NCBI GenBank assembly: GCA_030066455.1
Contig: JASJBQ010000129.1
Coordinates: 1 to 11,534, forward strand
Reading direction: 5' to 3'
Length of the DNA stretch: 11,534 nt
DNA from: Desulfobacterales bacterium
Lineage (GTDB): Bacteria; Desulfobacterota; Desulfobacteria; Desulfobacterales; UBA5852
In this document: piece by piece, positions 822-11,534 of the stretch
Layout: every line of letters starts with the position of its first letter
Position numbering within the stretch: position 1 is the stretch's first letter
The notes under the pieces: model-generated
Told to the model about the DNA's origin: nothing
Database searches by the model: none
What the model saw: the letters and a program-made list of their open reading frames with translations, nothing else
Program-made: the position numbers and the translations under genes

Positions 822-1688
822 TCACCCTCCGACGCGTTTTCCTTGCATGGCGGTTATCAAGCGCCCCTGTTCAGCGCCCTTCAGCCCCATGGCCTGCTCC
901 AGAACCTGGCTGTAGAGCATGGCCTGCGGCAGAGGCGCTTCTTCCGCACCCCCGGTCCATTGACCATCCAGATTGTCGAACTGCATCTGACAGTGGGTGC
1001 AGGCCGTGACCAGCACATGGGCGCCGGCCTCGCAGGCGTCTTGAATTTTACGCTGCATGAGCCGGCCTGCCAGGTGATCGTTTTTCCCTTTCAAGGGGCG
1101 GCCGCAGCACTCCAGGCGCAGGGGCCAGTGAACCGCGCGGGCACCGGTGGCTGCCACCAGATTTTCGAAAAGCGTCGGTGCCCGAGGGTTGTCGAACCGG
1201 GTGATGTGCCCGGGCCTCAGGGCATGGCAGCCGTAGTGCGCCGCGATGCGGAGCCCATTCAAGGGCTGCCGGATGCCGGCGCGGATGGTCTCGTAGCCGA
1301 TGTCGACGGCCAGGACCTGGAGCAGGTGGAAGACGCCCCCGCCCGCGACCCAGGTGAGGCCTTCCGACTCAAGGTGGGCGTTGACGTAGCGGCGCAGCTC
1401 CGCATTGCGCTGCAGCCAGTAGGCGGCGTGTTGCAGCTGGCCGTAACAGCACTTGCAGGGCGTCATCAGCGCCTGTCCTTCCCGTGCGGCCAGGGCCATG
1501 TTGCGCGCGGCCGCCAGCATCGAAGCCGCCGGTTCCTGGTCGCGAATCGGGTAGCCGCAGCAGTTCAGCTCCAGCGCCACCAGTTCGATGTCCAGGGCGG
1601 TCATGAGCCTGCGCACGGATCGGTCGTACCGGGGGAGAAACGGTTCGAGTTTGCATCCGGGAAAATAGAGATAGCGGCGCGTTTTCAT
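822..1688 (-). CDS. HdrB-like protein with two CCG domains, GlpC C-terminal-half equivalent
   Basis: A 288-residue soluble protein of the heterodisulfide reductase subunit B / CCG-domain type. Both CCG motifs are complete: C12, C43-C44-G45, C78 and C81 in the first; C154, C194-C195-G196, C230 and C233 in the second. In methanogen HdrB such motifs hold noncubane [4Fe-4S] clusters. In E. coli GlpC and in DsrK/HdrD, the same module is fused behind two ferredoxin-type motifs. Here it is a separate gene, last in the operon. Its ATG overlaps the upstream stop codon (ATGA, 4 bp) and has a good ribosome site (GAGGGG), so translation is probably coupled to the Fe-S/cytochrome b gene. The likely role, inferred, is to join GlpAB to the membrane Fe-S protein and relay electrons from FADH2. 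No membrane segment is seen, so it should be cytoplasmic and peripheral. Real thiol-disulfide chemistry cannot be excluded. Confidence 0.87.
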   Translation of the reverse strand: MKTRRYLYFPGCKLEPFLPRYDRSVRRLMTALDIELVALELNCCGYPIRDQEPAASMLAAARNMALAAREGQALMTPCKCCYGQLQHAAYWLQRNAELRRYVNAHLESEGLTWVAGGGVFHLLQVLAVDIGYETIRAGIRQPLNGLRIAAHYGCHALRPGHITRFDNPRAPTLFENLVAATGARAVHWPLRLECCGRPLKGKNDHLAGRLMQRKIQDACEAGAHVLVTACTHCQMQFDNLDGQWTGGAEEAPLPQAMLYSQVLEQAMGLKGAEQGRLITAMQGKRVGG

Positions 1689-3376
1689 GGCATCCCCTCG
1701 GGGGCGATGTCATCGGTGGCATTCAGGGGATAATGGGCCTTGAACCGCCGGTGGCCCTCGTGGCGCAGCTCGTATAGAATATCGGCGACCCGGATCCCCT
1801 GTGGACAGTGCTCCTGGCATTGGTAGCAGGTCACGCAGTCCCAGACCATCCGGGCGTTCAGGGCCGGTTCCCGGAGTTGAAGCCGCAACAGGTTCATGAC
1901 CTGCTGCGGGGTCAGGTCCAGATCGTCGCTCACCGCCACCACCGGGCACACACTGGTGCAGATGGTGCACTGAAGGCAGGCCCTGAATTTTTCCGGGGCA
2001 GGCGTAAAGTCCAGCGTGGCCGGCCGCCGGCCGGCGGTCATGGGCACCGGAGAAGCTGCCGGCCGGCGGGGTGCCGGGGGGGCGGTTCCTCGGGCGCGGA
2101 TCAGGTTGTCCACCGGCGCAAAACCGCGGCGCATCAGATCGGCCCTGGAGGCCTGCCACAAATCCTGCAGATCGATCCCCGAAGGGCACCAGGTGGTGCA
2201 GCGGCCGCAGGCGGTGCAAATATAGCTCCCTTCGGCCAGGGCGGCGCCCTGACCGGCGGGCCCACCGGATGTCCAGCGCTTCAAGGCCCCCAATTTTTCA
2301 GAGGGCAGGATGGCGGGGTTGGGGTTCGCGCGGTAGACGATGGCCACGGCACAGTGCTGGCTGCAGACCCCGCAATGGGTGCAGGCGTCCAAGCCCATGG
2401 CGCGCCGCACCGGGCGCAGGCGGGCAGGGGCGGCGACCGCGGCAGCCCCTGCCCGCACCAACAGACTTGCGGGGGCGGCCACCAGATGAAAAAACTTCGT
2501 AAAGGGCAACAGGGCCAGACCCAGGCAGGAAACCAGGAAATGAAAATGCCAAAGGATCGTGTTGAAATGAACGTGTTCCAAGGCGGCGGCCAACGGTTTC
2601 ATCAGGCGTGACAGCGGGTAGGACAAAAAGGCGGACTGGGGGCGGTCATGGCAGGCGGCGCAAAAATCCGCATGCAGCTCACGCCCGAGGGCCAGCGTCC
2701 CCGCACCGGCCGCCGCCGACATCGTCGCGGCGGCGCCGAATTCGGCCCGCCAGTAAGCCCGGAGGGCATCGACCTCCACGGCGTCGTCGCTGAACATATA
2801 GTCTTCGACCATGGCCGTGAATATGCTCGGCGAAACGATCTGGTGGCTTTCAAGCAGGATGCCGGAGAGGACGATGGCCGCCAGGAGCACCAATGCCAGC
2901 CGATCGGCCCGATTCCGGGTGGCCCGCAGCAAGGGGTCCGCCCGCCGCCTGAGGGTGGCGAAGACAACCCCCAGAAGGATCAGGGCCGCACCCAGATTGC
3001 GCCCAGGCCGCCAGGGGTTGAGGGTGGGGGCATAATCTCCCCACAGCCTGGCGCTGGTAAAATCGTCCAGGGCGTGAAAGATCACCAGAAAAAAGAACCC
3101 ATAGAATAGCCCCAGGTGCATGATGCCACGTCGCCAGTCCTGCCGCAGGACATGGCCTTGAAGCAGGACTTCCCAGACGAGCGATTTTAAGAGATGGGCA
3201 ATGCGCGGGCTGAAGACCGTCCGGCCGACCGCCTTTGCCGCCTGGAACCCAAGGCCGGTCTTCGATGGCGGCCGGGATTCGGCACCGATCGTTAGGCGGA
3301 ACCAGCGCCCGATACGCCACAGGGTCCCGATCAGTCCGATACCCAGGGCGCTGTATGCGATGATGGCGGTCGTCAT
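1685..3376 (-). CDS. NarI-like cytochrome b / heme c / tetra-[4Fe-4S] membrane fusion protein
   Basis: A 563-residue electron-transfer protein. The N-terminal half has about five membrane helices (near 2-20, 85-103, 127-143, 159-178, 272-292) like NarI/DsrM/HmeC cytochrome b subunits. Histidines in or near them (H87, H101, H178, H277, H279, H297) are possible heme b ligands. Basic loops after helices 1 and 3 put the C-terminus in the cytoplasm. The loop between helices 4 and 5, predicted periplasmic, carries one CAACH heme c motif at 239-243. The C-terminal half has four CxxCxxCxxxC motifs, starting at C332, C387, C467 and C514, so two dicluster ferredoxin modules. The start at 3376 is chosen because it begins at the first helix, 7 bases after the glpB stop; its ribosome site is poor, suggesting coupling. 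A longer reading from 3499 would overlap glpB and add residues unlike a signal. The role is inferred: membrane anchor and quinone-reactive part of a GlpAB complex, replacing GlpC. Confidence 0.85.
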   Translation of the reverse strand: MTTAIIAYSALGIGLIGTLWRIGRWFRLTIGAESRPPSKTGLGFQAAKAVGRTVFSPRIAHLLKSLVWEVLLQGHVLRQDWRRGIMHLGLFYGFFFLVIFHALDDFTSARLWGDYAPTLNPWRPGRNLGAALILLGVVFATLRRRADPLLRATRNRADRLALVLLAAIVLSGILLESHQIVSPSIFTAMVEDYMFSDDAVEVDALRAYWRAEFGAAATMSAAAGAGTLALGRELHADFCAACHDRPQSAFLSYPLSRLMKPLAAALEHVHFNTILWHFHFLVSCLGLALLPFTKFFHLVAAPASLLVRAGAAAVAAPARLRPVRRAMGLDACTHCGVCSQHCAVAIVYRANPNPAILPSEKLGALKRWTSGGPAGQGAALAEGSYICTACGRCTTWCPSGIDLQDLWQASRADLMRRGFAPVDNLIRARGTAPPAPRRPAASPVPMTAGRRPATLDFTPAPEKFRACLQCTICTSVCPVVAVSDDLDLTPQQVMNLLRLQLREPALNARMVWDCVTCYQCQEHCPQGIRVADILYELRHEGHRRFKAHYPLNATDDIAPEGMP

Positions 3377-3383
3377 TCTGAAT

Positions 3384-4664
3384 TCAACCCAAGAGCCGTT
3401 CACATGCGCGCACGGCGGCGTATGCGCTGGCAATGGCCAGACCGCTGCCGCATTTTTCCCGCACCCAGTCCTGATGGGCCAGAATCGAGCCGGCGGCAAA
3501 AAGCCGGGGGTATACCCGCCGGCCGTTGACGCCTACAGGACGGAAGCAGTCATCCACGGGCAGTCCGGCACGATTGATGGCATGCCCCGCGGGATGCAAC
3601 AGATCCTTGTGGTGCCATTCATCCCGGTGCGGCGGTTGATCGACGGGCAGATCAAACAGTGTTTCCCGGATCGCCCTGCGATCGGCGTGCAGGCCTTTGC
3701 CGAAGAAGCGCCCGGTGGCCAGAATGACGGCCTGTGTGCGGGCCTGGAATCCATCCCCATCGCTGCCGATGCCGATCCGGAATTCTCTTGCGCTGGAGGG
3801 CGCCACCGCCGTAACGTTTTGCTGGTACCAGGCACGGACGCCGAGCCGCGGCAGGTGCTGCTCAAAGGTTTCGCGCAGCCGCAGGCCGGGCACACTGGGC
3901 AGCAAGGTCGGGATTTCAAACAGGGGCACCCCCAGAATTTGCTGCATCATCTCGAAATTGCGCCGGGTGCGATGCACACCGACGACGGCCGGCAGGCCCA
4001 CGGCCCGGGCCCCGGCCAGCCGACAATGGATATCGACAGCTATTTGGCGGCAGAGGTCACCGTTTTCCAGGAGCCGGCCCAGCTGCTCCGGCTGTAATTC
4101 CCCCTGCATCCGGGGCACCGCCAGGCGCAGCGCCCGCAAATCGGGCCACTTTGCTCCCAGTGTCGCCGCAATCTGCCGGGCACTGAACCCCTTGAGGCCG
4201 TCAAAATCGACCAGCAGGCAGGGCGGGCGCTTCGCAAGGGCTTCATTGGCGGCCGCCATGGTGTGCGGAAGGGCATAGGTGGTCTTCACCGTACCCACCG
4301 GTGTCATGACCTGCAAGTTGCGCTCGGCCTGCAAGACATAGGGTTGACCGGCGTCGGCCAGAAATTGCAGGCACTCGCGCCAGGCCGCATGCATGTCCTG
4401 GTTGCCCATGCGGGTATAGGGGTGAGCGGGGCACTCCCGGCGCAGACGGGCGATGCCTTCCCAGGGGTCGGTCAGAACCTGGCCCGCAGACGCCGGATAA
4501 ACACCCAGAAGATCCAGAAGTCCGCTGGCAAAGGGGATCGTGCCGCCGCGTCCCACCTGCACGGTGTCGATGCCGCGGCGGGCGGCAAACAGGCTGGCCG
4601 CCATACCGGCCATGCCCGCCCCGATGACGAGCAGCCGGCAGGTGATGTCACGAGGTTTCGGCAT
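3384..4664 (-). CDS. glpB: Anaerobic glycerol-3-phosphate dehydrogenase subunit B
   Basis: A 426-residue flavoprotein, close to the roughly 419 residues of E. coli GlpB. The N-terminus has a dinucleotide-binding fold with G-A-G-M-A-G-M-A-A (residues 15-23). It is followed by the family-typical G-T-I-P-F-A-S-G-L-L-D-L-L-G stretch (41-54). The C-terminus has F-A-A-G-S-I-L-A-H-Q-D-W and C-G-S-G-L-A-I-A (389-412), matching the GlpB ending. In E. coli, GlpB forms the soluble catalytic pair with GlpA and carries flavin. The chosen start at 4664 overlaps the glpA stop by 17 bp and is preceded by GTGGAAAA; a longer reading from 4745 would prefix a basic tail with no family likeness. Gene order glpA-glpB is as in E. 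coli, but what follows is not a standard glpC. Confidence 0.9.
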   Translation of the reverse strand: MPKPRDITCRLLVIGAGMAGMAASLFAARRGIDTVQVGRGGTIPFASGLLDLLGVYPASAGQVLTDPWEGIARLRRECPAHPYTRMGNQDMHAAWRECLQFLADAGQPYVLQAERNLQVMTPVGTVKTTYALPHTMAAANEALAKRPPCLLVDFDGLKGFSARQIAATLGAKWPDLRALRLAVPRMQGELQPEQLGRLLENGDLCRQIAVDIHCRLAGARAVGLPAVVGVHRTRRNFEMMQQILGVPLFEIPTLLPSVPGLRLRETFEQHLPRLGVRAWYQQNVTAVAPSSAREFRIGIGSDGDGFQARTQAVILATGRFFGKGLHADRRAIRETLFDLPVDQPPHRDEWHHKDLLHPAGHAINRAGLPVDDCFRPVGVNGRRVYPRLFAAGSILAHQDWVREKCGSGLAIASAYAAVRACERLLG

Positions 4665-6273
4665 GCGGGTTTTCCACGGCCGGCCGGCCGCGGCCGCCCG
4701 TGCTCTCCGCCGATGAGGACGGCCTGAGTTCGAGACCGAACACACCGCAATGGGTGGCTTCCAGGAGTTCCGCCTGGGCCAGGGAAATATCCCAAAGCAA
4801 CGGTTCCTGTCCCCGCCAGCGTTCCTTTAAAAAAGCCTGGAGTTCGAAGATGCCCCGCTCGGATTGCCATACCCCCTGATCGTAGAGGTAAGCGGCCACC
4901 CGCTGGCTGCAGAAGGTCCCCTGGCATGGCCCCTTGCCGATGCGGCTGCGCAGTCCAAGCGCCTTGAGGCCCGGCGTATCGTCGTGGCGTTTGAGAGAAT
5001 CGACCAGGTCGTCGACCACGGCCTGAGGTACCATTTCACATTCGCACAACAGGAGATCTTCGGGCCGCCCCCGTTCCATCCAGGTTCGGGGCGCAAGGCC
5101 GGGTTCGGTCCAGCGGGCCGCCGCCATATTGGGCAGGGGTTCGGTGCGCGTGCGGCAGGGCGCGGTGCGGCCGATCCGGCGGCAGACCATATCGGCCGTC
5201 TTTTCGGCCATCAGACGGTAGGTGGTGAGTTTGCCGCCGGTGATCGTCACGAAGTTAGCGATGCGACCGGTGTCACCGCGGCCATGATCGATGAGGGCGA
5301 ACCCGCGGCTGACGCTGCGGTCATCGCAGGCGTCCTCGCAGCTGACCAGCGGCCGCACCCCGCAGTAGGCGCGGATATAGCGGGTGCTGGCAAGCAGCGG
5401 GACCATGGCGGCGCCCTGTTCGATGATGTGGTCCACTTCGTGGATTTCGGGGTAGATCACATCCGGCGAAACACTGCGCTCGGAGGTGGTCCCCAGAATC
5501 GAGACCGTGCCGCCCGGCACCAGTATATCCCCGTCCGTTGGTGGCCGCAGACGGTTGATGACACGTTGGCTGATGCGTTCGCTGGTGACCAGCAGACTGC
5601 CCTTTGAATACACCATCGGGATACGGGCGCCGGCCAGGGCGGCCACCTCACCCGCCCAGGCCCCGGAGGCGTTCACCACCACCTCGGCTTCGATGGTCGT
5701 CCTCTCACCGCTGGTTTGGTTTTGGATGCGGACACGGCGAATGCGATGGTTGTGGAGGTCGAATCCAACCAGGGCGCTATAGCGCAGCAGCTTGGCACCG
5801 AGCGCTTCGGCATGGGCCATGTTGTCCAGCGAGAGTTTGAAGGGGTCGATGGTGGCATCTTCGACCTGATAGGCGGCGATCAAGCGGTCGGAAAGGCAGG
5901 GTTCCATTTCCCGGGCGATGGCCCTGTCCAGCGCCTGGATGGAAATGTCGCTACGGCCACAGATCTGGGGAAAATCGGCAATGTAGCTTTCCTCATCGCC
6001 GGCAATGGCCACGAATAGCCCGCCCGTGTTCTCGATACAGTGGGGCGCCAGCTGCTTGAGCAATTGGCCCTCGGCACGGCACTCGGCGGCGGCGGCCGGA
6101 TCCGTGGCGACATAGCGGGCGCCGCTGTGAAGCAGGCCGTGATTGCCCCCGGAAGCGCCGGCGTTGATATCCGCTTTTTCCACGACGATGCATTCGACCC
6201 CGCGGAGGGCCAGATCACGTGCCAGGCCGGTGCCGGTCACACCCCCGCCGATAATGAGAACCCTGGTCTCCAT
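4648..6273 (-). CDS. glpA: Anaerobic glycerol-3-phosphate dehydrogenase subunit A
   Basis: A 541-residue FAD enzyme, against about 542 in E. coli GlpA. It oxidises sn-glycerol 3-phosphate to dihydroxyacetone phosphate in the cytoplasm. An N-terminal GxGxxG FAD fold is seen (G-G-G-V-T-G-T-G, residues 9-16), then the glycerol-3-phosphate dehydrogenase signature around 38-54 (A-G-A-S-G-G-N-H-G-L-L-H-S-G-A-R-Y). A second FAD contact region is near 344-352 (T-I-T-G-G-K-L-T-T). The C-terminal part has a Bfd-like [2Fe-2S] motif: C410, C412, C450 and C455. This tail separates GlpA from the shorter aerobic GlpD and fits an Fe-S electron partner. The ATG at 6273 has a good ribosome site (GGGAGA, 7 bases upstream). 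First gene of the leftward operon, under the operator-bearing region 6274-6539. Very confident. Confidence 0.96.
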   Translation of the reverse strand: METRVLIIGGGVTGTGLARDLALRGVECIVVEKADINAGASGGNHGLLHSGARYVATDPAAAAECRAEGQLLKQLAPHCIENTGGLFVAIAGDEESYIADFPQICGRSDISIQALDRAIAREMEPCLSDRLIAAYQVEDATIDPFKLSLDNMAHAEALGAKLLRYSALVGFDLHNHRIRRVRIQNQTSGERTTIEAEVVVNASGAWAGEVAALAGARIPMVYSKGSLLVTSERISQRVINRLRPPTDGDILVPGGTVSILGTTSERSVSPDVIYPEIHEVDHIIEQGAAMVPLLASTRYIRAYCGVRPLVSCEDACDDRSVSRGFALIDHGRGDTGRIANFVTITGGKLTTYRLMAEKTADMVCRRIGRTAPCRTRTEPLPNMAAARWTEPGLAPRTWMERGRPEDLLLCECEMVPQAVVDDLVDSLKRHDDTPGLKALGLRSRIGKGPCQGTFCSQRVAAYLYDQGVWQSERGIFELQAFLKERWRGQEPLLWDISLAQAELLEATHCGVFGLELRPSSSAESTGGRGRPAVENPHAETS

Positions 6274-6338
6274 GGCCTATCTCCCGGGCATACGACCGAG
6301 ATCGATTTGCGGATCAGTGCCGGAAGGTTTGCACTCGG

Positions 6339-6355
6339 ATTTTCACTTGCGAAAA
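6339..6355. promoter_or_regulatory. GlpR-type operator at glpA promoter (copy 1)
   Basis: ATTTTCACTTGCGAAAA, an interrupted palindrome with arms TTTTC and GAAAA around six bases. An exact 17-base copy lies at 7445-7461 in front of the transporter operon. Two copies flanking the glpR gene, each at a promoter, make GlpR the obvious ligand (inference). The rest of the region is more AT-rich than the genes around it. Confidence 0.75.
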
Positions 6356-6379
6356 TAAAATGCCGGTGCTACGGTGCAA
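6352..6379 (-). promoter_or_regulatory. Candidate glpA promoter
   Basis: On the minus strand TTGCAC (6379-6374) and TATTTT (6357-6352) are 16 bases apart and resemble -35 and -10 boxes with several mismatches. The -10 box overlaps the operator at 6340-6355, the arrangement expected for repression. The same TATTTTC overlap is seen at the transporter promoter. The glpA start codon is about 80 bases downstream. Confidence 0.4.
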
Positions 6380-6450
6380 AGGCGCTTGTCTTTAGCCTTT
6401 AATCGAACAATGATACACAGTTTCCTACCATAAAGCGCGATGTATGTCAT

Positions 6451-6456
6451 TATAAT
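6451..6456 (+). promoter_or_regulatory. Perfect TATAAT box, possible glpR -10
   Basis: TATAAT reads on the plus strand at 6451-6456, and the same AT stretch gives TATAAT on the minus strand at 6454-6449. Neither has a good -35 at 16-18 bases. Start of transcription for glpR near 6463 would put the degenerate operator at 6456-6471 over it. Weak evidence beyond the box itself. Confidence 0.35.
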
Positions 6457-6471
6457 TTTCATTTACCAACA
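6456..6471. promoter_or_regulatory. Degenerate GlpR half-site
   Basis: TTTTC-ATTTAC-CAACA keeps the left arm of the operator perfectly but has two mismatches in the right arm. Its centre is 32 bases (about three helical turns) from the centre of the site at 6488-6503, so cooperative binding is possible. Could be chance in AT-rich DNA. Confidence 0.3.
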
Positions 6472-6487
6472 AATTTAGCATCGAAAT

Positions 6488-6503
6488 TTTTCTTAATTGA
6501 AAA
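6488..6503. promoter_or_regulatory. GlpR-type operator before glpR (copy 3, divergent core)
   Basis: TTTTC-TTAATT-GAAAA has the same arms and the same six-base spacing as the two identical sites, but a different core. It ends 36 bases before the glpR start codon. That position fits autoregulation. AT-rich surroundings raise the chance of a random match, hence lower confidence than copies 1 and 2. Confidence 0.55.
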
Positions 6504-6539
6504 TATTTATGGTGTGGCCCCCATCGAAGGTGGTGCAGG

Positions 6540-7415
6540 ATGTCTGGCAATCCATCGGGTGATCACAATCGGTCGTGCGAGGACCGGACCACCGTTACGG
6601 CCGGCGCCAAGACCGGCCCGGTGCGCGACCGGCATGAAAAAATCAAACAGCGGGTCAACGCCAAGGGATTCGTCACCATCGAGCACCTGGCTGCGGAGTT
6701 CGGGGTCACCCCCCAGACGATCCGGCGTGACATCAACCTTCTCAGCCGGGAAGGCAGCATCCATCGCTACCACGGCGGCGCGGGCGTTCCCCCCAGCACC
6801 GAGAACGTGGCCTATACCCAGCGCAAGGTGCTCTGCCTTAAGGAGAAACAGCAGATTGCCCGCATGGTGGCCGCCCAAATACCCGACCACGCCTCCCTGT
6901 TCATCAACATCGGCACGACTACCGAGGAAATTGCCAAGCGTCTCTGCGACCACGACCGGCTGCGCGTGATCACCAATAGCCTCAACGTGGCGGCGATTCT
7001 GGCAGGCAACGAGAATTTCGAAGTCATCGTGGCCGGGGGGCTGGTCCGCCCCCGGGACGGTGGCATCGTCGGGCCGCTGACCATCGATTTTATCCAGCAG
7101 TTCAGAGTGGATTTCGGCATCATCGGCATCAGCGGGATCGATCTGGACGGTACCCTGCTGGATTTCGACTACCGCGAAGTGCGCGCGGCGCGGGCCATTA
7201 TCGACAACTCACGCAAGGTTTTCCTGGCGGCGGATCACACCAAATTCGGCCGCAACGCCATGGTGCGCCTGGGCAGCATCAGCGAGATCGATGCCCTCTT
7301 TACGGACCGGATGCCGGCGGAACCGGTCACCGAGGCGCTTGGCGCTTCCGAGGTCGAACTGCATGTGGCGGGTTTCGCTTCCCCTATGGCGGAGAACGGT
7401 GTGTTACCCAAGTAA
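6540..7415 (+). CDS. glpR: DeoR/GlpR-family glycerol regulon repressor
   Basis: A 291-residue regulator. The DeoR-type helix-turn-helix spans about 44-70 (V-T-I-E-H-L-A-A-E-F-G-V-T-P-Q-T-I-R-R-D), followed by H-R-Y-H-G-G-A as in GlpR. The C-terminal sugar-phosphate-isomerase-like domain has the effector motif N-I-G-T-T-T-E-E-I-A (123-132), a conserved I-T-N-S-L-N (144-149), and D-x-x-K-F-G-R (232-238). In this family DNA binding is released by glycerol 3-phosphate. E. coli GlpR is 252 residues; this one has about 30 extra residues at the N-terminus, with no recognisable domain. The ATG at 6540 follows an AAGGTGG ribosome site; a later GTG at 6621 would give a normal length but lacks such a site. 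It is divergent from glpA and upstream of the transporter, with operator candidates before and after it. Confidence 0.93.
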   Translation: MSGNPSGDHNRSCEDRTTVTAGAKTGPVRDRHEKIKQRVNAKGFVTIEHLAAEFGVTPQTIRRDINLLSREGSIHRYHGGAGVPPSTENVAYTQRKVLCLKEKQQIARMVAAQIPDHASLFINIGTTTEEIAKRLCDHDRLRVITNSLNVAAILAGNENFEVIVAGGLVRPRDGGIVGPLTIDFIQQFRVDFGIIGISGIDLDGTLLDFDYREVRAARAIIDNSRKVFLAADHTKFGRNAMVRLGSISEIDALFTDRMPAEPVTEALGASEVELHVAGFASPMAENGVLPK

Positions 7416-7438
7416 ATGTTTAATAATGAAACATTATT
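7415..7438 (+). repeat. Two overlapping AT-rich inverted repeats after glpR
   Basis: AATGTTT (7415-7421) pairs with AAACATT (7429-7435), and AATAATG (7422-7428) pairs with CATTATT (7432-7438) over an AAA loop. The two 7-bp stems share bases and exclude each other. They begin at the last base of the glpR stop codon. Without G+C or a T-run they make a poor terminator; they could be a protein site upstream of the transporter promoter. Confidence 0.4.
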
Positions 7439-7449
7439 CTGACTATTTT
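7420..7449 (+). promoter_or_regulatory. Candidate transporter operon promoter
   Basis: TTAATA (7420-7425) and TATTTT (7444-7449) are 18 bases apart, each matching four of six consensus positions. The TATTTT overlaps the left arm of the operator at 7446-7461, just as at glpA. Transcription would start inside the operator, leaving a leader of roughly 120 bases before the first ATPase gene. Readthrough from glpR is also possible. Confidence 0.35.
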
Positions 7450-7461
7450 CACTTGCGAAAA
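7445..7461. promoter_or_regulatory. GlpR-type operator before transporter operon (copy 2)
   Basis: ATTTTCACTTGCGAAAA, identical over 17 bases to the site at 6339-6355. It lies 30 bases after the glpR stop codon and 117 bases before the first transporter gene, in a non-coding stretch. The exact match in two regulatory gaps, 1.1 kb apart, is strong evidence for a shared regulator. Confidence 0.75.
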
Positions 7462-7509
7462 GAAATAGCCGATGATAAGCGCAATGATTGACCGCGTACA
7501 ACGATCCTT

Positions 7510-7562
7510 CCCACCTTAAAACCAAGCCGTTCAACACGGTCGTATCCCCCCGCTCAGGTGGG
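7510..7562 (+). promoter_or_regulatory. Possible leader stem near the glpS ribosome site
   Basis: CCCACCT (7510-7516) can pair with AGGTGGG (7556-7562) around a 39-base loop that holds a small CCGT-TCAAC-ACGG hairpin (7527-7539). The closing stem ends five bases before the GGGAGA ribosome site at 7567-7572. No known riboswitch class is recognised. Could be chance. Confidence 0.25.
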
Positions 7563-7578
7563 CTACGGGAGATGGCAC

Positions 7579-8679
7579 ATGGGGCTGGTGCTCGAGAAGA
7601 TTGACAAAGTCGTCGGCGGCGAAATGCATCTGGCAGGCATCGACCTCGAGTTGCACGCCGGATCACGCAACGTCCTGCTGGGGCGCACACTGGCCGGCAA
7701 AACCTCGCTCTTGCGCATCATGGCCGGTCTGGACAAGCCCACCCGGGGACGCATCATCCTTGACGGGCGCGACGTCACCGGCGTTTCGGTGCGCAAACGC
7801 AGTGTGGCGATGGTGTATCAGCTCTTTATCAATTATCCCTCGCTGACGGTTTACGACAATATCGCTTCACCACTCAAAACCAGCGGGATGGCCAAACCCG
7901 AGATCGATCGCCAGGTGCGTGAAATCGCCGAAATGCTGCGGATCGACGATCTATTAGACCGTCTGCCGGCCGAGCTGTCCGGCGGCCAGCAGCAGCGCAC
8001 CGCCATCGCACGGGCCATGGTCAAGAATGCCGAGCTGCTGCTGATGGACGAGCCGCTGGTCAATCTGGACTATAAGCTCAGGGAAGAGCTGCGGGTCGAA
8101 CTTCAGGACATTTTCGCCCAGCGCAGAGCCATTGTCGTCTACACCACGACCGAGCCGACCGAAGCGCTGATGCTGGGGGGCAACATCACCGTCCTCGACG
8201 AAGGTCGCATTCTTCAGACCGGCACCACCCACACGGCCTACCGCAATCCGGCCACGATCAAAGTGGCCGAAGTCTTCAGCGACCCGCCGATCAACTTTCT
8301 GCACGGCCACATTCAAGGCGCACGGGCGCTCATCGGGCAGGGGATTGAAGTGCCGCTCAACGGCAGTATGCAGGGATTGGCGGACGGCGATTATACCTTT
8401 GGGATTCGCTCCAACCATTTTTTTCTGTCGCGAACGGGTGAAAACGACGCCCAGATCGAAGCGCGTGTGGAGCTGGCCGAGATCAACGGCTCGGAAACCT
8501 TCATCCACTTCAATCACGGCGACAACCGGCTCGTGGCCCAGGAGGACGGCATTTATCCGCACCGGATCGGGACGGCCGTCACCCTCTATGTCAATCCGCG
8601 TTGCCTTTTCGTCTTTGACATGCAGGGCAGCCTGGTTGCCGCCCCGGATCTCGACCGCATTCAACAACAGCCTGCATAG
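7579..8679 (+). CDS. glpS: Glycerol ABC transporter ATPase, GlpS type
   Basis: A 366-residue importer ATPase with a C-terminal TOBE-like regulatory part (from about 240). It has Walker A G-R-T-L-A-G-K-T (35-42), which fits GxxxxGKT but is unlike the usual GPSGCGKT; Q-loop Q81; intact signature L-S-G-G-Q (133-137); and Walker B L-L-L-M-D-E-P (153-159). The switch histidine is missing: the V-T-H-D segment reads T-T-T-E, placing T191 there. No aromatic A-loop residue is evident before Walker A. It should pair with the next gene's ATPase. The ATG at 7579 is chosen because GGGAGA lies 7 bases upstream; a GTG at 7558 is in frame but has no such site. Named after the rhizobial GlpSTPQUV glycerol transporter from gene order (glpR, two ATPases, two permeases). 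A sugar or glycerol-phosphate substrate is possible. Confidence 0.82.
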   Translation: MGLVLEKIDKVVGGEMHLAGIDLELHAGSRNVLLGRTLAGKTSLLRIMAGLDKPTRGRIILDGRDVTGVSVRKRSVAMVYQLFINYPSLTVYDNIASPLKTSGMAKPEIDRQVREIAEMLRIDDLLDRLPAELSGGQQQRTAIARAMVKNAELLLMDEPLVNLDYKLREELRVELQDIFAQRRAIVVYTTTEPTEALMLGGNITVLDEGRILQTGTTHTAYRNPATIKVAEVFSDPPINFLHGHIQGARALIGQGIEVPLNGSMQGLADGDYTFGIRSNHFFLSRTGENDAQIEARVELAEINGSETFIHFNHGDNRLVAQEDGIYPHRIGTAVTLYVNPRCLFVFDMQGSLVAAPDLDRIQQQPA

Positions 8680-8688
8680 GATACGGCC

Positions 8689-9774
8689 ATGGCGCGCATC
8701 GAACTCCATGAAATCGCCCACAGCTATCGTCCCAAACCCGCGGACGAATCGGATTTCGCACTCAAGCGCATCCATCACACCTGGGAGGATGGCGGCGCCT
8801 ATGCCCTGCTGGGCCCTTCGGGCTGCGGGAAGACCACCTTGCTGAACATCATTTCGGGTCTGCTGACACCCACACGCGGAAAGGTGTTATACGACGGTCA
8901 GGATGTTACCGGGCTTCCGCCCGAGAAACGCAACATCGCGCAGGTTTTCCAGTTTCCGGTGCTCTACGACACCATGACGGTCTTCGACAACCTGGCCTTC
9001 CCTCTGCGCAACCGGGGCCACGACGCCGGCGACATCGACCGCCGCGTCCGCGAGGTGGCCGAAATCCTCGATCTGAGCCCCTTTCTAGGCAAACGGGCGG
9101 CAGGCCTGGCCGCCGATGCCAAACAGAAAATATCCCTGGGCCGGGGGCTGGTGCGAAGCGATGTCGCCGCCATTCTTTTTGATGAACCGCTGACCGTGAT
9201 CGATCCCCACCTGAAATGGAATCTGCGGCGCAAACTCAAGGATATCCACGAACAGCTGAAACTGACCTTCATCTATGTGACCCATGATCAGGTGGAAGCC
9301 CTCACCTTTGCCGACAAAGTGGTGGTCATGTACGAAGGCGAAATCGTGCAGATCGGCTCTCCCCAGGATCTCTTTGAAAATCCCGAGCACACCTTCGTGG
9401 GCTATTTTATCGGCAGCCCCGGCATGAATTTCCTCGACTGCACCCTGGAGGGTGATATGGCCCTCTGCAACGGGTCGCGGATCGCCCTCGACGCGGCGGT
9501 GGCGGCCAAAGCGCGCGGTATTGAGGGCAAACTGGAACTCGGCATCCGGCCGATGCATCTCAAGCTCTCCGCCGAGGCCGTCGACGGCGGCATCCCGGCC
9601 CAGGTCAAGGGGGTCGAGGACCAGGGCAGCTACCGGATCGTGAACGTCACCCTGGCGGGCAAGCTCCTGCGGGCCCGGCTGCCGGAAGGCGAGCGCATTC
9701 CCGAGGACAAGGCCTGGCTCATTTTCACCCCGGCCTGGACCCGCCTGTTCGCCGACGGGCGGCTGGTTAAATAG
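8689..9774 (+). CDS. glpT: Glycerol ABC transporter ATPase, GlpT type
   Basis: A 361-residue importer ATPase with a TOBE-like C-terminus. It has an A-loop tyrosine (Y13), Walker A G-P-S-G-C-G-K-T (42-49), Q-loop Q88, Walker B F-D-E-P (164-167) and switch H199 in Y-V-T-H-D. The signature motif is lost: where LSGGQ is expected it reads L-A-A-D-A (140-144), with the flanking K-Q-K-I-S-L-G-R-G-L-V still aligning to QRVALGRALV. The D-loop is also altered (T-V-I-D for SxLD). The loss complements GlpS, which keeps LSGGQ but lacks the switch histidine. The gene starts nine bases after glpS, with AGGATA as ribosome site, so the two are cotranscribed. The symbol follows the rhizobial system and is not the E. 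coli glycerol-3-phosphate antiporter GlpT. Confidence 0.83.
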   Translation: MARIELHEIAHSYRPKPADESDFALKRIHHTWEDGGAYALLGPSGCGKTTLLNIISGLLTPTRGKVLYDGQDVTGLPPEKRNIAQVFQFPVLYDTMTVFDNLAFPLRNRGHDAGDIDRRVREVAEILDLSPFLGKRAAGLAADAKQKISLGRGLVRSDVAAILFDEPLTVIDPHLKWNLRRKLKDIHEQLKLTFIYVTHDQVEALTFADKVVVMYEGEIVQIGSPQDLFENPEHTFVGYFIGSPGMNFLDCTLEGDMALCNGSRIALDAAVAAKARGIEGKLELGIRPMHLKLSAEAVDGGIPAQVKGVEDQGSYRIVNVTLAGKLLRARLPEGERIPEDKAWLIFTPAWTRLFADGRLVK

Positions 9775-9808
9775 TGTCGATCCGGAAATGGTCGATTTTG
9801 GTTCAGGC

Positions 9809-9826
9809 TCCCGCTTTGCAGCGGGA
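9809..9826 (+). terminator. Small GC hairpin after glpT
   Basis: TCCCGC (9809-9814) and GCGGGA (9821-9826) form a 6-bp stem with a 6-base loop, followed by TTTC. It lies 35 bases after the glpT stop codon. Too weak for a full terminator; it might attenuate, or protect, the mRNA between the ATPase and permease genes. Confidence 0.35.
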
Positions 9827-9875
9827 TTTCACATCGGTATTTTATCGACGGTCGGTGTTCAACAAACCGCAGCGA

Positions 9876-9920
9876 TTTTGAAACCACAGGCGTAGTGGCG
9901 CTACGTCGAGGATTTCAAAA
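9876..9920. repeat. 45-bp imperfect palindrome in the glpT-glpP gap
   Basis: Two 20-base arms (9876-9895 and 9901-9920) surround a 5-base loop, TGGCG. The outer 8 bases (TTTTGAAA / TTTCAAAA) and inner 5 bases (CGTAG / CTACG) pair perfectly, and the middle has mismatches. It resembles, from memory and unverified, an interspersed intergenic repeat of Desulfobacterota genomes. It sits inside an operon whose other gaps are a few bases, so an insertion of a repeat unit is a reasonable reading. Confidence 0.6.
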
Positions 9921-9988
9921 GAGCGAGAACATCGGCCTGGGCCGAAAGATGCCTTTTATGGATGGGCGCTAAGCAGCAAGGAGCGGCT

Positions 9989-10870
9989 ATGGACAAGTGG
10001 CCCGACAATAAAGCCTGGTTTCTGGTGTTGCCGGCATTTATCATCGTCGCCTTCAGCGGCATCATTCCTTTGATGACGGTGGTCAACTATTCCCTCCAGG
10101 ATATTTTCGGCCCGGGCGAGGCCGTTTTCGTGGGCACCGAATGGTTCAAGGAAATGCTGGGCAACTACCGGCTGCACGATGCGCTGTGGCGCCAGTTCCT
10201 GTTTTCCGGGATGGCCCTGCTCATCGAGATCCCCCTGGGAATTCTGATTGCCCTGGCCATGCCCAAGCGCGGTTGGGGGGTGTCCGCCTCGCTGGTGATC
10301 CTGGCGCTGCCCCTGGTCATCCCCTGGAACGTGATCGGCACCATCTGGATCATCTTCACCCGGCCGGACATCGGTCTGTTCGGCGTATGGATCAACAGCC
10401 TGGACCTCCTCGAGGTCCCCTTCGATCACACGGCCAAGCCCATCTATGCCTGGATTACGCTGATGGCCATGGAGGTCTGGCACTGGACGCCCCTGGTGGC
10501 CCTGCTGGCCTATGCCGGGCTGCGGGCCATACCCGAGGCCTACTACCAGGCCGCCAAGATTGACGGTGCGTCGGCCTGGGCCACCTTCCTCTACATTCAA
10601 CTGCCCAAAATGCGCGGCGTGCTCACGATTGCCGTTTTGCTGCGCTGGATGGACAGCTTTCTGATTTATGCCGAACCCTTTGCCCTCACCGGCGGGGGTC
10701 CGGGCAACACGACCACCTTTCTTTCCATCTATCTGGTCAAGCTGGCCACCATGCAGTTCGACCTCGGGCCGGCCGCGGCTTTTTCGCTGATCTATTTTCT
10801 GATTGTGCTGCTCTTCAGCTTCGCATTCTACCAGGCCCTGCTCAACGTCGGCCGAGGAGAGAAGGCATGA
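9989..10870 (+). CDS. glpP: Glycerol ABC transporter permease, GlpP type
   Basis: A 293-residue inner-membrane permease of the MalF/UgpA-like binding-protein-dependent family, with about six helices (near 9-31, 72-91, 98-123, 152-176, 209-228, 262-283). The cytoplasmic EAA loop is clear: E-A-Y-Y-Q-A-A-K-I-D-G-A (183-194) followed by F-L-Y-I-Q-L-P. It also has the family's A-L-T-G-G-G-P-G-N-T-T (232-242) ahead of the last helix. The start at 9989 has a perfect AAGGAG five bases upstream; an ATG at 9962 is in frame but has a worse site. It is separated from glpT by 214 bases containing a palindromic repeat, and overlaps the next permease by four bases. It should pair with that permease to form the channel. 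Confidence 0.9.
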   Translation: MDKWPDNKAWFLVLPAFIIVAFSGIIPLMTVVNYSLQDIFGPGEAVFVGTEWFKEMLGNYRLHDALWRQFLFSGMALLIEIPLGILIALAMPKRGWGVSASLVILALPLVIPWNVIGTIWIIFTRPDIGLFGVWINSLDLLEVPFDHTAKPIYAWITLMAMEVWHWTPLVALLAYAGLRAIPEAYYQAAKIDGASAWATFLYIQLPKMRGVLTIAVLLRWMDSFLIYAEPFALTGGGPGNTTTFLSIYLVKLATMQFDLGPAAAFSLIYFLIVLLFSFAFYQALLNVGRGEKA

Positions 10871-11534
10871 AAGTCCAGAAAAGAACCATCGCCCTGTGCA
10901 TCTATTTCGGGCTGCTGATCCTGCCGATCTATTGGATGCTCAACATGTCGCTGCGGACCAACGCCGACATCCTCGGCGACTTTTCGCTTTACCCGGCCGA
11001 TATCACCTTTCGCAATTACATCAAGATTTTCACCGATCCGACCTGGTATACGGCCTATATCAACGCCATCATCTACGTCAGCATGAACACGGTGATGTCG
11101 CTGGCTTTCGCCCTGCCGGCGGCCTACGCCTTCTCACGCTATAGATTCATCGGCGACGGGCAGATGTTTTTCTGGCTGCTGACCAACCGCATGGCCCCCC
11201 CGGCCGTTTTTCTCCTGCCTTATCTTCAGCTCTATTCGACCTTCAAGCTGATGGATACCCATATCGCGGTGGCTTTGGCCCATTGCCTGTTCAACGTCCC
11301 CCTGTCCGTCTGGATTCTTGAGGGCTTCATGTCCGGGATTCCCAAGGAAATCGACGAAACCGCCTTTATCGACGGGTACAGTTTTCCGCGCTTCTTTATC
11401 ACCATATTCATACCGCTGATTCGCGCCGGGGTCGGCGTGACCGCCTTCTTCTGTTTCATGTTCAGCTGGGTCGAACTGCTCTTTGCCCGCACCCTGACGA
11501 TCACCGAAGCCAAACCGATCGTGGCCACCATGAC
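10867..11534 (+). CDS. glpQ: Glycerol ABC transporter permease, GlpQ type, 3' partial
   Basis: The first 222 residues of a MalG/UgpE-like permease; the frame is open to the window end with no stop. Helices are seen near 8-26, 64-88, 100-121, 132-152 and 178-200. The EAA loop is present in diverged form: E-I-D-E-T-A-F-I-D-G-Y (161-171), then F-F-I-T-I-F-I-P-L. The sequence after the first helix (S-L-R-T-N-A-D-I) and the N-R-M-A-P-P segment (107-112) fit this half of the permease pair. The start codon overlaps the glpP stop (ATGA), with GGAGA upstream, so translation is coupled. About 60 residues are probably missing. The symbol follows the rhizobial system and is not the E. coli phosphodiesterase GlpQ. 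The binding protein should follow outside the window. Confidence 0.88.
   Translation, partial: MKVQKRTIALCIYFGLLILPIYWMLNMSLRTNADILGDFSLYPADITFRNYIKIFTDPTWYTAYINAIIYVSMNTVMSLAFALPAAYAFSRYRFIGDGQMFFWLLTNRMAPPAVFLLPYLQLYSTFKLMDTHIAVALAHCLFNVPLSVWILEGFMSGIPKEIDETAFIDGYSFPRFFITIFIPLIRAGVGVTAFFCFMFSWVELLFARTLTITEAKPIVATM

Follow-up and report, generated by a model that had tools for sequence, protein, structure and literature searches.

How can a glycerol-3-phosphate dehydrogenase of the GlpAB type deliver its electrons to the membrane at a locus where no GlpC is encoded? This question is raised by contig JASJBQ010000129.1 of a Desulfobacterales bacterium (assembly GCA_030066455.1), a stretch of 11,534 nucleotides (nt) that was analysed over its whole length and is called the window here. 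On its minus strand we found glpA, glpB, a gene for a NarI-like cytochrome b fused to iron-sulfur motifs (narFeS), and an hdrB-like gene, in this order, in a tight operon whose neighbouring genes overlap or are 7 nt apart. The four genes, with protein lengths in amino acids (aa), are:

822..1688, minus strand: hdrB-like gene, 288 aa, two CCG (cysteine-rich) domains (Pfam CCG, 87.2 bits)
1685..3376, minus strand: narFeS, 563 aa, a NarI-like cytochrome b, a CxxCH loop and four [4Fe-4S] motifs
3384..4664, minus strand: glpB (NF003725, 520.8 bits against a cut-off of 345; TIGR03378, 212.6 against 174.15)
4648..6273, minus strand: glpA, flavin adenine dinucleotide (FAD)-dependent glycerol-3-phosphate dehydrogenase subunit (TIGR03377, 566 bits against a cut-off of 552.8)

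We consider it reasonably probable that these genes encode a membrane-bound glycerol-3-phosphate:menaquinone oxidoreductase in which GlpC has been replaced by a two-gene NarI/Hdr module. For this enzyme we infer a GlpAB-NarFeS-HdrB complex, the occupancy of its cofactors, the order and direction of electron flow, and a quinone as the acceptor. The open frame of glpB extends back to 4745, and the NF003725 match begins at residue 30 of this long frame; the gene likely starts at the ATG at 4664.

Searching the window with curated GlpC models revealed no GlpC. NarFeS scored 81 bits (NF008369) and 60.4 bits (TIGR03379) and HdrB 26.6 bits (NF008369), against cut-offs of 278 and 279.9, respectively. 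As in E. coli-type GlpABC, GlpA and GlpB exceed their family cut-offs and both the ferredoxin pair and the CCG pair of GlpC are represented, but here the GlpC parts are split over two proteins, one of them fused behind a cytochrome b. The first-pass annotation of this DNA had proposed a CCG part encoded by a separate HdrB-like gene, a ferredoxin part doubled to four [4Fe-4S] motifs behind a NarI-like domain, and one operon of all four genes; each of these is borne out by the 288-aa HdrB, the 563-aa NarFeS and the gene spacing. No etfAB genes were found among the nine window proteins scanned, glpAB being present instead, and no HdrA was recognised in the window.

To describe the membrane protein, we aligned 106 intact NarFeS sequences (36 glp-linked and 70 without glp genes in view). 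The sequences of L142, L183 and L209 scored too low for this alignment and for the tree, and the contig-cut L231 and L240 were also omitted. The features of NarFeS in the window are:

2447..3376, minus strand: NarI-like five-helix domain, residues 1-310, NarI-type match above the Pfam cut-off
2561..2836, minus strand: 92-residue loop between helices 4 and 5, containing the CxxCH motif, assessed by charge balance
2648..2662, minus strand: CxxCH c-type heme motif (CAACH), residues 239-243, with C239, C242 and H243
2186..2383, minus strand: first [4Fe-4S] motif pair, residues 332-342 and 387-397, adjoining the membrane domain
1805..1978, minus strand: second [4Fe-4S] motif pair, residues 467-477 and 514-524, matching GlpC/HdrC

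Four candidate heme b ligands (H87, H101, H279 and H297) were invariant in all 106 sequences. In the predicted structure, helix 2 holds two of them and helix 5, with its continuation, the other two, a placement that we take to match two-heme NarI-type cytochromes. Of the 16 cluster cysteines, 15 were invariant and the remaining one was kept in 105/106 rows. The best region for the GlpC model NF008369 was residues 462-540, and solved HdrC chains matched residues 463-543. A fold search found mycobacterial EtfD as the closest solved fold to the predicted NarFeS model; G-protein-coupled receptors and pore-forming proteins among the low-ranking matches were taken as chance. When the sequences of solved structures were searched with a profile, HdrC and SDH/FRD-type subunits were recovered. 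EtfD is described as a single chain with two cubane clusters and one b heme that receives electrons from ETF (PMC13083937). EMO, the ETF:menaquinone oxidoreductase, is described as a diheme, iron-sulfur-containing membrane enzyme with b hemes at -80 and -220 mV that uses methylmenaquinone (PMC8805022). NarFeS has in common with EtfD/EMO the fold of a NarI-type membrane domain with ferredoxin clusters. However, EtfD/EMO carries the CCG part on the same chain, whereas the window encodes it in a separate hdrB gene, and the module differs further in its four cubane motifs, its CxxCH motif and its presumed donor, GlpAB rather than ETF.

The second protein of the module resembles the HdrB of methanogens. 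It matched solved HdrB chains (phmmer, E 2e-36), and all ten ligand-type cysteines (12, 43, 44, 78, 81, 154, 194, 195, 230 and 233) were kept in 29/29 glp-type rows, including the window. Electrons from GlpA probably enter the module at HdrB, which probably also holds noncubane clusters. As in HdrABC, an HdrB-like protein stands beside a cluster pair that matches HdrC, but the HdrC part is here fused to a membrane domain. Membership in the CoB-CoM heterodisulfide reductases was rejected, HdrB scoring 160.8 bits against the equivalog cut-off of 345.15. On the donor side, one further feature was found by alignment:

4909..5046, minus strand: C-terminal CxC...CxxxxC cysteines of GlpA (410, 412, 450 and 455)

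These cysteines, which presumably form a BFD-like [2Fe-2S] site, were kept in 119/119 aligned GlpA rows besides the window, drawn from three arrangement types.

These parts could be joined in a single path. GlpA, with GlpB as its partner, would oxidise glycerol-3-phosphate at the FAD. Electrons would leave GlpA through the [2Fe-2S] site, enter the noncubane CCG clusters of HdrB, and pass to the C-terminal, HdrC-like cluster pair of NarFeS and then to the extra cluster pair. From these cubanes they would reach the two b hemes and reduce menaquinone. Beyond them, a c-type heme carried by the helix 4-5 loop would extend this wire and may tune the quinone site or provide a second exit. The glycerol-3-phosphate couple lies near -190 mV, which fits an EMO-like chain with b hemes at -80 and -220 mV.

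The first-pass annotation had overlooked the CxxCH motif. C239, C242 and H243 were invariant in 106/106 intact sequences, including all 70 rows without glp genes in view. The c-heme motif thus belongs to the whole module and not to glycerol-3-phosphate oxidation. The loop that holds it is acidic (6 K+R and 11 D+E), and the loops on the opposite side carry 9/3, 4/1 and 5/1 of these residues (borders set by hand). From this balance the loop is predicted to be periplasmic and the cluster domain to lie inside. A c-type heme is likely carried by the motif. No cytochrome c family exceeded its Pfam cut-off on the loop alone, the PF13442 (Cytochrome_CBB3) match reaching 14.5 of 27 bits (E 0.046). Cytochrome c assembly proteins were encoded in 13/13 genomes tested.

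The motif opens another route, in which the module would send glycerol-3-phosphate electrons across the membrane through the CxxCH heme to periplasmic c-type cytochromes, with or without a quinone site and assisted by the membrane potential. We regard this as unlikely. It would account for an invariant motif in a 92-residue acidic loop and agrees with the assembly proteins in all 13 genomes; the report on EtfD describes a b heme, and the term "cytochrome c" does not occur in its main text (PMC13083937). Conversely, the motif is just as constant in modules without glp genes, the loop falls below every cytochrome c family cut-off, and family scans over part of the window's frames brought up no cytochrome c gene. 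That the dehydrogenase itself is a transmembrane conduit, running from two b hemes to a periplasmic c heme and on to cytochromes under the drive of the membrane potential, can be put forward tentatively. If so, electrons from glycerol oxidation could be used in periplasmic or extracellular electron transfer, and modules with an HdrA-like partner would serve other donors likewise. The conserved motif makes such a new electron exit directly testable.

We then asked how often the module occupies the place of GlpC, using 241 genomes that belong to the same class as G003 (a Desulfobacterales bacterium, the source of L003). GlpB exceeded its cut-off in at least 109/241 genomes and GlpC in at least 14/241, both lower bounds since at most seven candidates were scored per genome. 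Among 123 GlpB loci, narFeS was downstream at 23, GlpC was adjacent at 13, neither was found at 75, and the stretch ended too soon at 12. GlpC and the module occurred together at 0/123 loci. The 23 module loci come from 22 genomes, none of which is among the 14 GlpC-positive genomes. The conserved linkage in relatives that the first-pass annotation had named as a check was therefore found here, as well as in the Spirochaetota and Comamonadaceae described below. Most GlpAB loci in the surveyed class (75/123) have neither GlpC nor an Hdr module nearby. The distribution reveals that the link from glycerol-3-phosphate to respiration in anaerobes is less settled than annotation suggests.

The 123 loci comprise 30 (L081-L110), 92 (L111-L202) and L003; four of the 92 (L194, L200, L201 and L202) were included although below the GlpB cut-off, and small GlpB fragments were dropped (for example G072:C89, G068:C529 and G142:C163). 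Arrangements were classified in 112 stretches (L111-L222), of which L203-L222 are wider stretches for 20 of the 30 and five GlpC stretches were assigned by hand. The remaining ten of the 30 were eight GlpC-adjacent loci identified by coordinates, G203, whose GlpC lies on another contig and which was therefore counted as ending too soon, and G007, which is the module locus L007. The 23 module loci consist of 18 with hdrB, three cut by the contig end (L129, L185 and L209), L003 and L007. Two have a broken narFeS frame, L142 and L183 (the latter by a TAG), reflecting either decay or sequencing error. "Neither" denotes no GlpC and, in the 3.5 kb that follow downstream on the same strand, no NarFeS above 50 bits or HdrB above 100 bits; five of these 75 loci have less than 3.5 kb of downstream sequence and five have no glpA. 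No module-like match above 100 bits was found anywhere in the stretches of the 75 loci, a search that a very divergent partner would escape. At L114, L172, L175 and L178, a downstream frame carries a cluster motif.

GlpC above cut-off was found in 0/12 and 0/8 module genomes (three genomes are common to both sets, and many are draft assemblies). Matches to GlpC models below cut-off elsewhere in module genomes were not counted as GlpC. The three strongest, at 224-234 bits, belong to open frames of 955, 1041 and 977 aa that might be GlcD/GlcF-type fusions.

To follow the module beyond this class, we scanned genome contigs for NarFeS and analysed the best 80 of 174 loci. All four genes were present in order at 11, and 68 showed no glpB, 18 of which have less than 1.5 kb upstream of narFeS, so that glpB might be off the contig. 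One locus, L006 (glpB at 6111-7703), has glpB-narFeS-hdrB and no recognisable glpA in the stretch examined. The module was found in six Spirochaetota and two Comamonadaceae genomes, all with the four genes in order. In the class of G010 (L011, an uncultured Spirochaetes bacterium), NarFeS occurred in 6/46 genomes at 62-100% identity over nearly the full length, the 100% being the query's own genome; two of the six carriers were already in the best-80 scan and four more were confirmed by gene order. In the family of G012 (L078, a Rhodoferax sp. of the Comamonadaceae), it occurred in 2/150 genomes, both with the four-gene unit. The unit glpA-glpB-narFeS-hdrB is thus present in at least three phyla.

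DsrA exceeded its cut-off in only 2/8 of these Spirochaetota and Comamonadaceae genomes (assemblies may be incomplete), so the module is seemingly not tied to sulfite reduction. This bears on a further proposal, in which a disulfide-reducing site would survive in HdrB and supply DsrC, or some other thiol-disulfide carrier, with electrons, making the enzyme a glycerol-3-phosphate (or quinol):disulfide reductase that feeds sulfite reduction. The ten retained cysteines of HdrB would suit such a site; carriers belong mostly to sulfate-reducer lineages, with DsrA above cut-off in 9/13 genomes. Set against the six of eight genomes without it and an HdrB score far under the CoB-CoM cut-off, we judge this proposal improbable.

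The loci without glpB, L013-L020 among them, make up a sister set of NarFeS-HdrB pairs that is larger and shares the CxxCH motif. An HdrA-like flavoprotein family (labelled from its domains) was found near 37/68 of them, and FlpD-, NuoE- and NuoF-type genes near some; each neighbour family was labelled from one scanned representative. The sister set with its HdrA-like neighbour resembles a membrane-bound HdrABC that carries a c-heme motif, and the module as a whole resembles a single membrane quinone/Hdr unit combined with a variety of electron donors. In a quick tree of 99 proteins (unrooted and without bootstrap), all 31 glp-linked NarFeS fell on one side of a branch with a Shimodaira-Hasegawa-like approximate likelihood-ratio (SH-aLRT) value of 96.

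Several results weigh against a menaquinone-reducing complex in place of GlpC. The 75 loci with neither partner show that GlpAB can evidently work without an adjacent iron-sulfur subunit. The gap between glpB and narFeS exceeds 100 nt in L004, L006, L010, L157 and L215 (by a crude first-ATG measure), and in L209 glpA lies on the opposite strand. No quinone site was located in NarFeS, and a periplasmic heme c is in principle dispensable for quinone reduction. EtfD and NarI were absent at E 0.001 from the profile search of solved-structure sequences, so the kinship of NarFeS to them rests on fold, and the predicted model is less certain from residue 431, the second cluster pair included (block predicted local distance difference test scores of 36-85). 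GlpAB might even be self-sufficient, with NarFeS-HdrB a second, quinone-linked enzyme that has only the operon in common with it. The 75 loci and the relatives that accompany HdrA-like, FlpD and NuoE/NuoF-type genes instead would fit such independence. Yet narFeS-hdrB junctions are close and glpB-narFeS junctions often so, glp-linked modules lie on one side of the supported branch, and the four-gene unit recurs across phyla with the module in the GlpC position; we hold separate enzymes to be very improbable.

A membrane Hdr module beside glpAB is not new: the kind has been in print since 2009, and the window adds another example. In the Desulfobacterium autotrophicum HRM2 genome paper (Strittmatter 2009, PMC2702500), membrane Hdr genes, HdrF1/F1' and HdrF2, stand beside glpAB, electron transfer from GlpAB via HdrF is suggested, and GlpAB is tied to dicarboxylate degradation. 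Like the window module, HdrF1/F1' is the product of two genes that adjoin glpAB and between them encode transmembrane, HdrC and HdrB domains; the portion of the paper covering HdrF makes no mention of a periplasmic heme c, four clusters or GlpC replacement (PMC2702500). The interpretation of the first-pass annotation was right in outline, incomplete as regards the heme, and not the first. Two loci of genome G181, L174 and L181, are probably the HRM2 HdrF loci. Both have glpA-glpB-narFeS-hdrB, CxxCH and four cluster motifs, and their NarFeS fall on a divergent sub-branch of the tree. The 2009 paper calls HdrF2 a selenoprotein (PMC2702500). We did not adopt this: in L181 narFeS ends at a TGA, and an hdrB ATG follows 3 nt on in the same frame (L181:10080-10130); in L174 and the window, hdrB sits in another frame. 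What was called a selenoprotein from one gene may result from reading through an ordinary stop. No paper beyond PMC2702500 on a GlpAB-linked NarI/Hdr module turned up in the open-licence literature.

The distribution of the module and its putative heme c are worth a bench test. Some sulfate reducers and a few others seem to wire glycerol-3-phosphate oxidation into the membrane. Sulfate reducers also have DsrMK and QmoC, which combine a membrane cytochrome b with Hdr-like parts. Membership of the window module in DsrMK/Qmo was rejected (DsrK, 21.8 bits against a cut-off of 400; QmoC, 45.2 against 300).

The neighbouring genes in the window are:

6540..7415, plus strand: glpR-like DeoR-family regulator, divergent from glpA (PRK10906, 324.3 bits, slightly below the cut-off of 331)
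7558..11534, plus strand: two UgpC/MalK-like ATPases and two permease genes, behind the glpR-like gene

The last gene runs past the window end and was left out of the family scan. We take the transporter genes to resemble GlpSTPQV-type glycerol ATP-binding cassette (ABC) importers; they probably encode an ABC importer for glycerol or glycerol-phosphate that belongs to the same regulon as the glp genes. Downstream of hdrB, on the opposite strand, positions 41-613 encode a CxxCxxCC-type protein (Pfam PF03692, 21.9 bits against 23), and a relative of it likewise lies on the opposite strand beyond hdrB in L001-L004.
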